Shown in pieces: positions 18,434 to 24,571 of a DNA stretch of 64,000 nucleotides. Numbering within the stretch: the first letter of the stretch is position 1; each line of letters opens with the position of its first letter. Location: contig NZ_CP064048.1 of NCBI RefSeq assembly GCF_020923495.1, positions 2,373,501 through 2,437,500 of the forward strand, in the 5' to 3' direction. The stretch is from Brevibacillus sedimenti (lineage in GTDB: Bacteria; Bacillota; Bacilli; Brevibacillales; Brevibacillaceae). Below the pieces are notes generated by a model. That model made no database searches, had not been told where the DNA came from, and saw only the letters and a list, made by a program, of their open reading frames with translations. The translations under genes were made by a program, and so were the position numbers.

Positions 18434-19228
18434 GTGGGTATTGGAATTGTCGTAACATCAGGAAAAGGCGGCGTGGGCAAGACGACCACTTCCGCCAATT
18501 TGGGAACGGCGCTCGCTCTCCTGGGCCAGAAAGTCTGCATGGTCGATACGGATATCGGACTGCGCAATCTGGATGTCGTCATGGGACTGGAGAACCGCAT
18601 CATTTACGACCTGGTGGATGTGGCGGAAGGGACTTGCCGCCTGCAGCAGGCGCTGATCAAAGACAAGCGGTTCGAAACCCTGTCCCTGCTGCCGGCTGCA
18701 CAGACCAAGGACAAGTCGGCGGTTTCCCCCGAGCAGATGGAGGAAATCGTCACACAGTTGAAGCGGGAGTTTGACTATGTCCTGATCGACTGCCCGGCCG
18801 GGATCGAGCAGGGATTCCGCAACGCGGTGGCAGGCGCGGATCAGGCGATCGTAGTCACGACGCCAGAGAAAGCCGCTGTCCGTGACGCGGACCGGATCAT
18901 CGGTCTGTTGGAACGGGAACAGGTCGGCATGCCCAAGCTGGTGATCAATCGTGTGCGGTCGCACCTGGTGAAAAACGGCGACATGCTCGATGTGGAAGAT
19001 ATTCTGGATTTGTTAGCCATTGACTTGATTGGCGTTGTGCCGGATGATGATCATGTCATCAAATCGGCTAACCAGGGTGAGCCGGTGGTGATGAACCACG
19101 AGTCCCGTGCGTCCATCGCCTACCGCAACATCGCCCGCCGCCTGTTGGGCGAAGCCGTGCCGCTTCAGCCGCTGCAGGAAAAGACGGGCGTGCTGCAAAA
19201 GGTGCGCAGGTTTTTCGGATTGAAATAA
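18434..19228 (+). CDS. minD: Septum site-determining ATPase MinD
   Basis: ParA/MinD-family ATPase that recruits MinC to the membrane. The deviant Walker A SGKGGVGKTT is at residues 9-18, the switch segment DTDIGLRNLD follows, and DCPAGIEQGF is the MinD-type switch II/Walker B region. The C-terminus (GVLQKVRRFFGLK) is an amphipathic membrane-targeting helix. At 264 aa it is standard. GTG 18434 has AGGAGG 7 nt upstream. No minJ or divIVA is in the window. A terminator follows directly. Confidence 0.97.
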   Translation: MGIGIVVTSGKGGVGKTTTSANLGTALALLGQKVCMVDTDIGLRNLDVVMGLENRIIYDLVDVAEGTCRLQQALIKDKRFETLSLLPAAQTKDKSAVSPEQMEEIVTQLKREFDYVLIDCPAGIEQGFRNAVAGADQAIVVTTPEKAAVRDADRIIGLLEREQVGMPKLVINRVRSHLVKNGDMLDVEDILDLLAIDLIGVVPDDDHVIKSANQGEPVVMNHESRASIAYRNIARRLLGEAVPLQPLQEKTGVLQKVRRFFGLK

Positions 19229-19275: not shown

Positions 19276-19360
19276 TTCTTATCGGCGCAGATGCGCAAGC
19301 GGATCCCAGGAAGCCGCGTCCCTCGTGAGAATGGGAGCCAGGGAGGGCGAAGAAACTACT

Positions 19361-20497
19361 ATGTTTGACCTTGAAAAACGACATCTGAAATCGATCGACT
19401 GGCCAATTGTGATCATCCTGTTTGGCTTGGCCGTGTACAGCTACAGTGGTATTTCCGGATCGGACAAAGGTATCCACATGGCCAACCAGCAGATGATCTG
19501 GTACGCGATCGGATTTATGGTGCTTTTCGCTACGCTGCTGTTCGACTATCGGCTGTATTACTCCATGTCTTACGTCTTGTACGCCATCGGCATCATCCTT
19601 TTGATCGGCGTATTCCAGACGACGCCGATCAACAACGCCACGAGTTGGTACCGCCTGCCGGGGGGCGTTTTGTTTCAGCCGTCTGAGCCGATGAAACTGT
19701 TTACGATTTTGACGGTGGCCCGTTACCTGGCCAACAAGGCTGACGATCCCGAGCGGTTCCGGTATTTCTATCAGCTCATTCCCGTCGGGCTCATCGTCGC
19801 CGTGCCCTTGCTGTTGATTTTGGTGCAGCCCGATTTGGGAAGCGCGCTGGTGTACTGCAGCATTTTGGCCACCATGCTGCTTGTGGGGGGCATCCGGTTG
19901 AAACACGTGCTCTACCTGGGCACGCTCGTCGGCAGCTTTTTCGGGTTTATGACGTATCTGTACTTTTTCCATCAGTCGATTTTCTTCAAGATCTTCAAAC
20001 CGTATCAGTTTGATCGGATCAAGTTTTGGCTCAACCCCGATCTGGAACCGATGGGGCGCGGTTTTCAATTGAAGCAATCGCTGATTGCGATCGGCTCCGG
20101 CCAACTGTTTGGCAAAGGCATTAACACGCCGACCCAGGCCAGTTTCGGCTGGGTCCCCGTCGGCGAAAGCGACTTCATCTTTACCGTCATTGCGGAAAAG
20201 CTCGGTTTCGTCGGCGCGGGTGTGCTGATGATCCTGTTCTTCTTCCTGATTTACCGGATGATCCGCATCGCGATGGAGGTTAAAGATCCGTTTGGTTCCT
20301 ATGTAGTGGCAGGGGTGGTCGGCATGTTCACGTTCCAGATTTTTGAGAACATCGGCATGACCATCCAGTTGATGCCCATCACCGGGCTTCCACTGCCCTT
20401 TATCAGCTACGGCGGCAGCTCGCTGTTGACCAATTTTCTGATCATCGGCGTCGTCCTGAACATCGGGATGCGCAAGGACAGACTGCGTTTTGATTAA
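19361..20497 (+). CDS. rodA: SEDS-family peptidoglycan polymerase, RodA-type
   Basis: Polytopic membrane glycosyltransferase of the FtsW/RodA/SpoVE family, about 378 aa and 10 helices. SEDS hallmarks are VLFQPSEPMKL, LVQPDLGSALVY and the C-terminal LPLPFISYGGSSLLTNF signature. RodA rather than FtsW/SpoVE is preferred from its place in an mre/PBP2/min cluster and the N-terminal RHLKSIDW, a common RodA opening. ATG 19361 is chosen because the protein then starts like other RodAs; GGGAGGG is about 13 nt upstream, longer than ideal. Probable partner of the PBP2 encoded upstream. Confidence 0.88.
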   Translation: MFDLEKRHLKSIDWPIVIILFGLAVYSYSGISGSDKGIHMANQQMIWYAIGFMVLFATLLFDYRLYYSMSYVLYAIGIILLIGVFQTTPINNATSWYRLPGGVLFQPSEPMKLFTILTVARYLANKADDPERFRYFYQLIPVGLIVAVPLLLILVQPDLGSALVYCSILATMLLVGGIRLKHVLYLGTLVGSFFGFMTYLYFFHQSIFFKIFKPYQFDRIKFWLNPDLEPMGRGFQLKQSLIAIGSGQLFGKGINTPTQASFGWVPVGESDFIFTVIAEKLGFVGAGVLMILFFFLIYRMIRIAMEVKDPFGSYVVAGVVGMFTFQIFENIGMTIQLMPITGLPLPFISYGGSSLLTNFLIIGVVLNIGMRKDRLRFD

Positions 20498-20501
20498 ATG
20501 C

Positions 20502-20530
20502 GTGACAAACCGATCCGGATGTGATACACT
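20502..20530 (+). promoter_or_regulatory. Promoter of the cold-shock gene leader
   Basis: GTGACA, 17-nt spacer, TACACT with an extended -10 (TGATACACT). The start would fall near 20537, giving a leader of about 194 nt before the csp ATG. Confidence 0.65.
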
Positions 20531-20536
20531 CAATCT

Positions 20537-20730
20537 AAGTTAACCCGTTTTACTAGCTGTAGTGATTTGATATAGGTTGTGGAGTCGTACCTTGTTGAGA
20601 GACGCCACCATGTGGTCAAATCTCGGCTCGGTACGACTTTTTCCATACCGGCAAAAACTCCTCTGTAAAAACAGGTTAACGGATCACTCTTTCGCCCCGA
20701 TGCGGGCGCATGTTTAGGAGGTTTTGTTTC
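20537..20730 (+). promoter_or_regulatory. Structured 5' leader of csp
   Basis: Three elements are seen. (1) GTTAACCCGTTTTAC at 20539-20553 can pair with 20665-20680 (14 bp, one mismatch, one bulge). (2) Between them, GTCGTACC / GGTACGAC at 20584-20637 forms a hairpin with an inner GAGA/TCTC stem, followed by five Ts. (3) AAAACTCCT at 20654-20662 is complementary to the AGGAGGTTTT Shine-Dalgarno region at 20716-20725. Long structured leaders are known for cold-shock mRNAs; this arrangement I do not recognise. Confidence 0.55.
20584..20642 (+). terminator. Terminator-like hairpin inside the csp leader
   Basis: 8-bp stem GTCGTACC / GGTACGAC closing a 38-nt loop with its own GAGA/TCTC and CCAC/GTGG pairing, then TTTTT. 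It could end a ~105-nt small RNA from the csp promoter, or serve as attenuator or rodA terminator. Confidence 0.5.
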
Positions 20731-20931
20731 ATGCAACAAGGTATTGTTAAATGGTTCAACGCGGAGAAAGGATACGGTTTCATCCAGGTTGAAGGCGGAG
20801 ATGACGTATTCGTACACTACAGCGCTATCCAGGCAGAGGGTTTTAAAACGCTGGAAGAAGGTCAAAAGGTTGAGTTCGAAATCGTTCAAGGCAGCCGCGG
20901 ACCGCAAGCTGCGAACGTTGTGAAACTGTAA
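20731..20931 (+). CDS. csp: Cold-shock protein (CspB/CspD family)
   Basis: 66-aa single OB-fold RNA chaperone. RNP1 (KGYGFIQV) and RNP2 (DVFVHYSAI) are both intact, and the N-terminal [11 protein letters not shown] is canonical. The ATG is chosen because AGGAGGT is 8 nt upstream and the family starts with M-x-x-G-x-V-K-W-F. It is monocistronic: its own promoter, long leader and a strong terminator flank it. It probably destabilises mRNA secondary structure at low temperature and may act on its own leader (inference). Confidence 0.96.
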
Positions 20932-20946
20932 ACAATGGCCCATATC

Positions 20947-20980
20947 AAAAGCAGTCTCTCGATGGAGAGGCTGCTTTTTT
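20947..20980 (+). terminator. Terminator after csp
   Basis: 14-bp stem AAAAGCAGTCTCTC / GAGAGGCTGCTTTT, GATG loop, then a T-run. Confidence 0.85.
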
Positions 20981-24456: not shown

Positions 24457-24512
24457 AATGTCTGTCATGCAGCTATGCCTCGCGCATACTGTAACCGCTC
24501 GAATCAGGTTGG

Positions 24513-24571
24513 ACAAGACGCCGTTCGCGGCGCACCTGCACAGGCGAGTCTGAGTATAGGAGGTGCACAAC
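24513..24571 (+). promoter_or_regulatory. L21-type ribosomal leader of rplU
   Basis: A CGCCG-UUCG-CGGCG hairpin at 24519-24532 is followed by CCTG-CA-CAGG, and AGAC/GTCT (24516/24548) can close around them. Competing with these, GCACCT at 24532-24537 is fully complementary to AGGTGC (24561-24566) in the Shine-Dalgarno. An L21 leader upstream of rplU is known in Firmicutes; assignment here is by position and structure. Confidence 0.55.

Follow-up and report, generated by a model that had tools for sequence, protein, structure and literature searches.

A conserved cold-shock gene leader in Brevibacillaceae with a long-range closing helix and, in many relatives, a 5' arm complementary to the coding start

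The csp locus and its predicted leader

A gene for a 66-amino-acid cold-shock protein (csp; PF00313, 108 bits) occupies positions 20731 to 20931 of the window, the 64,000-nucleotide stretch of Brevibacillus sedimenti DNA analysed here. The gene lies downstream of two frames identified by eye, one minD-like (18434-19228) and one rodA/ftsW-like in its translation (19325-20497), and is followed by an intrinsic terminator of ordinary type (20945-20980; -22.3 kcal/mol); these and all leader features described below are on the forward strand. The leaders of csp genes are textbook cold-responsive RNAs, but among Gram-positive bacteria detailed dissection has been confined to a small number of species.

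A putative promoter (GTGACA, a 17-nucleotide spacer, and TACACT) spans positions 20502 to 20530, and its spacing places the predicted transcript start, AAGUUAACC, at position 20537. In the window sequence alone, the promoter pattern occurs at chance level (1 found versus 0.9 expected). Among relatives, GTGACA and TAnnnT stand at a near-fixed distance in all 38 family leaders examined (the leader L144 was omitted), 5 to 7 nucleotides upstream of an invariant AAGUUAAC as parsed. The spacer was parsed as 17 nucleotides in 37 of the 38; in the exception, L147, it was parsed as 19 and reads by eye as 17 with TATAAT. Because the promoter is conserved, transcription is predicted to begin at about A20537, which would give a leader of about 194 nucleotides and make its closing helix, P1, begin at +3. 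The original prediction had named a start downstream of 20553 as the outcome that would undo this helix; the conserved promoter counts against such a start, itself as a prediction.

The two arms of P1 (20539-20553 and 20665-20680) enclose element E (GAUUUGA, 20564-20570), which is conserved in the leader alignment and reads AGUGAUUUGAUGGAUUGG in many relatives, and the larger hairpin P2 (20584-20637). A further hairpin, P3 (CGCCC/GGGCG, 20693-20708), stands 5' of the Shine-Dalgarno (SD) sequence AGGAGG (20716-20721). GGAGG is present in 33 of 33 leaders, and a hairpin is predicted between P1 and the SD in all 33. An anti-SD stretch picked out by eye (CUCCUC, 20659-20664) was rejected as a candidate element, since it lacks conservation in the leader alignment.

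Membership in the Rfam cspA family (RF01766) was likewise rejected: positions 20450-20950 score 41.8 bits against a gathering threshold of 78, and the match (20601-20887) reaches deep into the coding sequence (CDS). The leader alone (20530-20735) gives no RF01766 match up to an E value of 10; its only matches, two on the minus strand to other families, are at chance level. The sole Rfam match at gathering threshold in the window is a ribosomal protein L21 leader (24483-24561, forward strand; 53.7 bits).

The closing helix P1 and the enclosed hairpin P2

P1 contains 14 pairs, one C/A mismatch, and one bulged A, exactly as originally described. By direct reading, GUUAACC (20539-20545) forms seven pairs with GGUUAAC (20674-20680), C20546 and A20673 face each other as the single mismatch, and GUUUUAC (20547-20553) forms seven more pairs with 20665-20672 around the bulged A20667. 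The minimum free energy (MFE) of the leader is -66 kcal/mol (z -3.16; 0 of 200 shuffles equally stable), and the MFE structure includes P1. Taken by itself, P1 lies within chance: of 2000 dinucleotide shuffles, 367 gave an equal duplex between the first 18 nucleotides and nucleotides 81-194, and the fold loses only 3.1 kcal/mol when the GUUAACC/GGUUAAC half is disallowed. P1 is credible through conservation and not through the window sequence alone, because the leader and the inner pairs of the helix are conserved across the family.

A query made of the leader and gene start matches 39 of 39 Brevibacillaceae genomes, the nearest named relatives being Brevibacillus, and csp lies downstream of every one of the 39 leaders examined. 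A covariance model built from 16 leaders finds one coding-strand match per genome in the same 39 (three also have a weak opposite-strand match at the same place). When applied to a class sample of 398 genomes under strict filters, which lose weak matches, the model matches 36, all Brevibacillaceae; among 80 named csp loci it finds four Brevibacillus loci and that of Bacillus taeanensis (L041, 34.6 bits), whereas the remaining eight model rows lie on the opposite strand or are at chance level (E values no better than 0.017). An exact pattern of arm, gap, and CDS matches 2 of the 398 class genomes but has no match within the family, because it allows no mismatch and a single gap range. A looser pattern is found in 2 of 41 genomes in the family of G369, where the leader is not seen as general. 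With csp leaders conserved throughout the family, promoters in 38 of 38, and P1 conserved, the proposal of a csp leader with its own predicted start and a closing helix is supported.

The alignment is guided by the model, and leans toward the structure; it comprises 33 leaders in 31 distinct rows. The leaders left out were L144 (genome G062), which has an insertion before the SD, the identical leaders L021, L022, L023, L028, and L143, L218 (its arm was mislocated by the pattern), and a match in G438 to part of the CDS only. The L144 insertion (about 813-989) is about 175 nucleotides long and separates the P1 3' arm from the SD in a csp leader that is intact in other respects; it is MITE-like, with a perfect 52-nucleotide inverted repeat and 19 nucleotides between its arms.

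The inner half of P1 is nearly invariant, its seven pairs being formed in 99.5% of cells over the 31 distinct rows; the standard variants are U-A to U-G wobbles only (5 cells at two positions), and one cell is unpaired in L145. In the outer half, both sides have changed at three of five positions. The sequence GTTAAC is its own reverse complement and hardly varies at either site, and the two copies might be DNA operators of a looping repressor, with the RNA pairing a by-product of the palindrome. This explanation is highly improbable, and the operator was rejected as a candidate: each of the five standard inner-half variants destroys the 3'-arm palindrome yet keeps the RNA pair, although they represent few events and the L145 change breaks its pair. 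By eye, no palindrome is seen in the outer half of P1 or in the arms of other families, which also argues against operators.

The mutual fit of the P1 arms was assessed by an alignment-free comparison of own arms with swapped arms, with no correction for shared descent. A first test gave p=0.054 for whole arms and 0.12 for the outer half. Wider windows gave p=0.0445 for 16 family representatives and p=0.36 without L031; the within-family fit rests largely on this one leader. With about one leader per genus, p was 0.087, and 0.0016 when two outgroups were added to the same set. The family without L031 plus the two outgroups gave p=0.0053, and all 19 representatives gave p=0.0002. Within the Sporolactobacillaceae, p was 0.0001 for 23 distinct leaders and 0.006 for 9 chosen for distinct arms. 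P1 also exceeds shuffled sequence in 19 of 19 representatives (p <=0.018), values that are optimistic because the 3' windows were picked around the known partner; against the whole unselected tail in two other families, p was <=0.013 in 11 of 12 leaders (L191, 0.073). Compensatory changes, which the original prediction had proposed to look for in related leaders, do exist in relatives, as seen in the outer P1 pairs, the arm-swap tests, and the Sporolactobacillaceae.

Enclosed by P1, as the original prediction had stated, is a stable hairpin: P2 has a predicted energy of -26.2 kcal/mol and a base stem pairing 20584-20591 with 20630-20637, in which both sides have changed at four of nine pairs. 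What had been missed is the terminator-like run of U directly 3' of P2 (20638-20642), four U of which are invariant in 33 leaders. P2 is about as stable as the terminator of csp itself, and a stable hairpin followed by a U-run is the trait of intrinsic-terminator attenuators; in these features, P2 with its U-run looks like an intrinsic terminator. Element E is complementary to element H (UCAAAUC, 20616-20622) within P2, and the two may pair to form a pseudoknot or an antiterminator. L041 has GAGAUUUAA/UUAAAUCUC at the E and H positions.

An attenuator built on P2 and the U-run would end most transcripts near 20643 unless the cell is cold or Csp is scarce; pairing of E with H, or Csp bound to the U-run, would then permit read-through, and P1 would form only in the read-through mRNA. 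Compensatory changes in the stem, the invariant U directly after it, and the stability of P2 all fit such a mechanism, as do hairpins with a stem of at least 8 pairs and five U, which precede 17 of the 76 other csp genes (shuffles predict 0.2, and the antisense strand has 0) and raise the question of csp control by premature termination. On the other side, P2 is absent from the list of a standard terminator scan with a loop limit of 8, its own loop being long and structured, and the U-run could be a Csp binding site instead. The E:H complementarity gave a swap p of 0.20 and shuffle p <=0.05 in only 5 of 18 representatives, and E:H as a proven antiterminator was rejected on these values. Three named Sporolactobacillus loci, moreover, have the arm but failed the hairpin test. 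Attenuation as the explanation of this leader is unlikely in our estimate; the stability of P2, its U-run, and the like hairpins before other csp genes nonetheless make it a serious rival or companion to a switch based on the P1 arm, with which it can coexist.

A second partner for the 5' arm

In many relatives, the 5' arm of P1 is antisense to the V-K-W-F codons of csp, a relation that the original prediction did not include. The CDS segment concerned (V-K-W-F-N codons, 20746-20760 in the window) was compared with shuffled arms, and the arm:CDS duplex gave p <=0.005 in 11 of 19 representatives and p <=0.05 in 13 of 19. The duplex is weak in L011, L013, and L017 (p 0.07-0.09) and unsupported in the window leader L001 (-9.0 kcal/mol, p=0.38), L031 (0.32), and L145 (0.45). 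In two other families, p was <=0.010 in 12 of 12 leaders. Swap tests were non-significant for arm:CDS pairing (p=0.22 and 0.19), and are weak in power because the CDS barely varies.

Contiguous Watson-Crick matches were counted between the first 24 nucleotides of the leader and the first 45 nucleotides of the CDS. Of the 33 family leaders, 7 have such a match of 11-13 nucleotides, 20 have one of 8-9, and 6 reach 6 or fewer; the window species, which has no match of 6 or more, belongs to the last group. L041 has 17 contiguous pairs, the same 17 occur in L191 and L193, and the matches in 24 Sporolactobacillaceae leaders range from 7 to 16. Four of the 76 other csp loci have a match of at least 11 nucleotides (L041, L039, L040, and L087; antisense control, 1), and these are the loci with a Brevibacillaceae-like leader 5' end. 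For 10 of 19 representatives, the in-leader 3' arm is in turn similar to the stretch GUAAAAUGGUUUAAC of the CDS (shuffle p <=0.05; window, p 0.16). Arm:CDS pairing uses the 5' arm of P1 and so excludes the closing helix; the two exclusive pairings are supported in 13 of 19 representatives and in 12 of 12 leaders of the two other families, and are unsupported in the window species.

Competition between the two pairings was modelled by ensemble folding (Vienna) of the 33 leaders with 60 nucleotides of CDS. From 15 to 55 C, mean P1 probability is predicted to fall from 0.48 to 0.13 and arm:CDS probability to rise from 0.35 to 0.52, and 26 leaders of the two other families follow a like trend (P1 from 0.62 to 0.38; arm:CDS from 0.29 to 0.53). 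Arm:CDS exceeds P1 in 14, 12, 18, 22, and 26 of the 33 leaders at 15, 25, 37, 45, and 55 C, and in 7, 9, 10, 10, and 14 of the 26. With the CDS included, P1a lies above 0.5 in 14, 15, 11, 7, 5, 3, and 2 of 33 leaders at 15, 25, 37, 45, 50, 55, and 60 C; P1 is thus predicted to dominate at 37 C in fewer than half of the family leaders (11/33), and in 6 of 33 neither pairing exceeds 0.5 at that temperature. Between 15 and 45 C, P1 is lost in 19 and the arm:CDS lock gained in 14 of the 33. At every temperature, L087 is predicted to be locked and L041 to be mostly open. The window leader stays in P1 (P1a 0.91 at 37 C), with arm:CDS at 0.01. As its arm:CDS pairing is also unsupported, a switch reading of these models is weakest for the window leader and strongest for its relatives.

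Sister genomes carrying L001 and L004 provide a natural test pair. They are 97% identical over leader and gene, with AACCCG in the arm of the window leader and AACCAG in L004, and folding predicts a flip at 37 C from P1 0.91 and lock 0.01 in L001 to P1 0.12 and lock 0.70 in L004.

A simple melting thermometer, taken here as the picture behind the original prediction, would have warming open P1 and directly alter access to the SD. The fall of P1a in the window to 0.24 at 50 C agrees with melting, but the SD lies outside P1 and its predicted unpaired probability does not track P1, for which reason SD control through P1 melting was rejected and the thermometer is very unlikely. In the window, the SD is unpaired with probabilities of 0.06, 0.12, 0.30, 0.33, 0.29, 0.28, and 0.30 at 15, 25, 37, 45, 50, 55, and 60 C. 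Mean predicted SD exposure over the 33 leaders does not rise in the cold (0.26, 0.25, and 0.34 at 15, 37, and 60 C; folding is a weak test), a result that argues against a plain cold-ON switch working at equilibrium via the SD. Of the proposed temperature switch, then, the helix and its conservation stand, whereas control of the SD finds no counterpart in the folding predictions for the window.

Known csp leaders and a possible cold switch

Several csp leaders with long-range structure have been published. In E. coli cspA mRNA, the 5'UTR is paired to a portion of the coding region at 37 C, and the structure adopted in the cold is open (PMC9947658). In Listeria cspA, a distal hairpin arises at temperatures of 30 C and lower, where the SD becomes available (PMC8079631). 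S. aureus cspB and cspC are cited as thermoswitches (PMC8155936), and in the long cspA leader of the same species RNase III cleaves a nearly perfect 5' helix of 32 bp, a cut that stabilises the mRNA and raises translation (PMC3386247). The B. subtilis cspB and cspC leaders contain cold-shock boxes, and a 5'UTR mutation raised cspC expression (PMC8307031). Because the E. coli, Listeria, and S. aureus leaders show comparable pairings, a closing helix in a csp leader is not unprecedented, and the earlier remark that no such architecture was known is partly wrong: a distal hairpin, a long 5' helix, and 5'UTR:CDS pairing have each been described.

The Brevibacillaceae leader shares features with each of these systems. 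The trait of Listeria- and S. aureus-type thermoswitches, a long-range hairpin in the open form, is present as the conserved P1, and the cspA thermosensor of Listeria monocytogenes is likewise a csp leader with a distal, long-range hairpin in its open form. The Listeria leader, however, is 101 nucleotides long and its closed form is a hairpin at the SD, whereas the competitor in Brevibacillaceae, where present, is the CDS; the terminator-like hairpin inside the leader is a further difference. E. coli cspA (RF01766) is alike in its 5'UTR:CDS pairing, and B. subtilis cspB and cspC are alike, by their description, in having conserved elements in the 5'UTR. In the open-licence literature searched, no description was found of an anti-CDS arm with an in-leader competitor and a nested terminator-like hairpin, and no work on such csp leaders of Brevibacillus and Sporolactobacillus was found.

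S. aureus cspA suggests another reading, in which P1 and P2 together form a 5'-terminal double strand that either shields the mRNA against 5' decay or serves as an RNase III substrate, with no sensing of temperature. P1 starts at +3, and both leaders have a long 5' helix upstream of the SD. Compared with the 32-bp helix (PMC3386247), however, the window leader has two shorter looped helices: its predicted fold contains no uninterrupted helix near 20 bp, and stems much shorter and more interrupted than the roughly 32 near-perfect 5' pairs of the S. aureus type. Nor does this reading account for the complementarity between arm and CDS that other members show, and it is rather improbable.

The reading we prefer, in which doubt still somewhat outweighs confidence, is that the 5' arm of the leader swings between two partners, the in-leader segment in an open form and the coding start in a locked one, possibly in combination with attenuation. 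A conserved cis-regulatory RNA would then occupy the csp leader. In the open form, the 5' arm (+3 to +17) would pair just upstream of P3, enclosing E and P2 and leaving the coding start free. In the locked form, available to many relatives, the arm would lie antisense to csp codons about 6-9 (V-K-W-F), spanning the initiation region, and the two pairings would be mutually exclusive. Since the P1 partner is transcribed ahead of the CDS, P1 should form first. Slower exchange of P1 in the cold would favour P1, and in warmth the lock would take over, giving a cold-ON translational switch. In the window species, where the lock is unsupported, P1 may be mainly a stable open form or a means of 5'-end protection. 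The S. aureus cspB and cspC leaders, in work attributed to Catalan-Moreno and dated 2021, reportedly adopt two exclusive forms, the long hairpin of the open form hiding an anti-RBS sequence; in Brevibacillaceae-type leaders, the hidden sequence would be anti-CDS instead.

A broader proposal extends the swinging arm to three or more Bacilli families (Brevibacillaceae; the family of L191 and L193, with a like leader in L041; and Sporolactobacillaceae). In each, an arm antisense to the gene's own V-K-W-F codons would face an in-leader competitor, in some leaders a recognisable copy of the coding stretch, in a cold-ON competition of decoy versus start with a nested attenuator hairpin. This generalisation is distinctly possible yet doubtful. 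If true, the V-K-W-F codons would double as the target of a regulatory RNA, with a decoy competing against the real coding start. The near-invariant 5' end would be explained, a simple cold switch would result, and the evolution of the leader would be tied to that of the CDS.

Other csp leaders surveyed alongside these have structures of their own. Folding of 23 of the other csp loci showed, by eye, further leaders whose 5' end pairs near the SD around a hairpin similar to P2 (e.g., L049, L067, L079, and L107). In L043, L049, L052, L066, L067, L079, and L107, a GCAAAG..AAGAT-like 5' end pairs with a CTTTGT-like stretch before the SD; this pairing surrounds a hairpin with a U-run, GGAATCAT may by eye pair with TGATCC in the loop, and six of the seven leaders, L052 being the exception, passed the hairpin test. 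Another class, in Paenibacillus, Lysinibacillus, and others (L046, L051, L054, L055, L056, L060, L070, and L091), has a long hairpin at about -120 to -58 that starts with (A)ATTCACATATT and ends in a U-run. In the Sporolactobacillus leaders L039, L040, and L087, the arm TTACTAC can pair with GTAGTAG in mid-leader (about -165 to -107), forming a 7-bp stem followed by five U, a possible third state.
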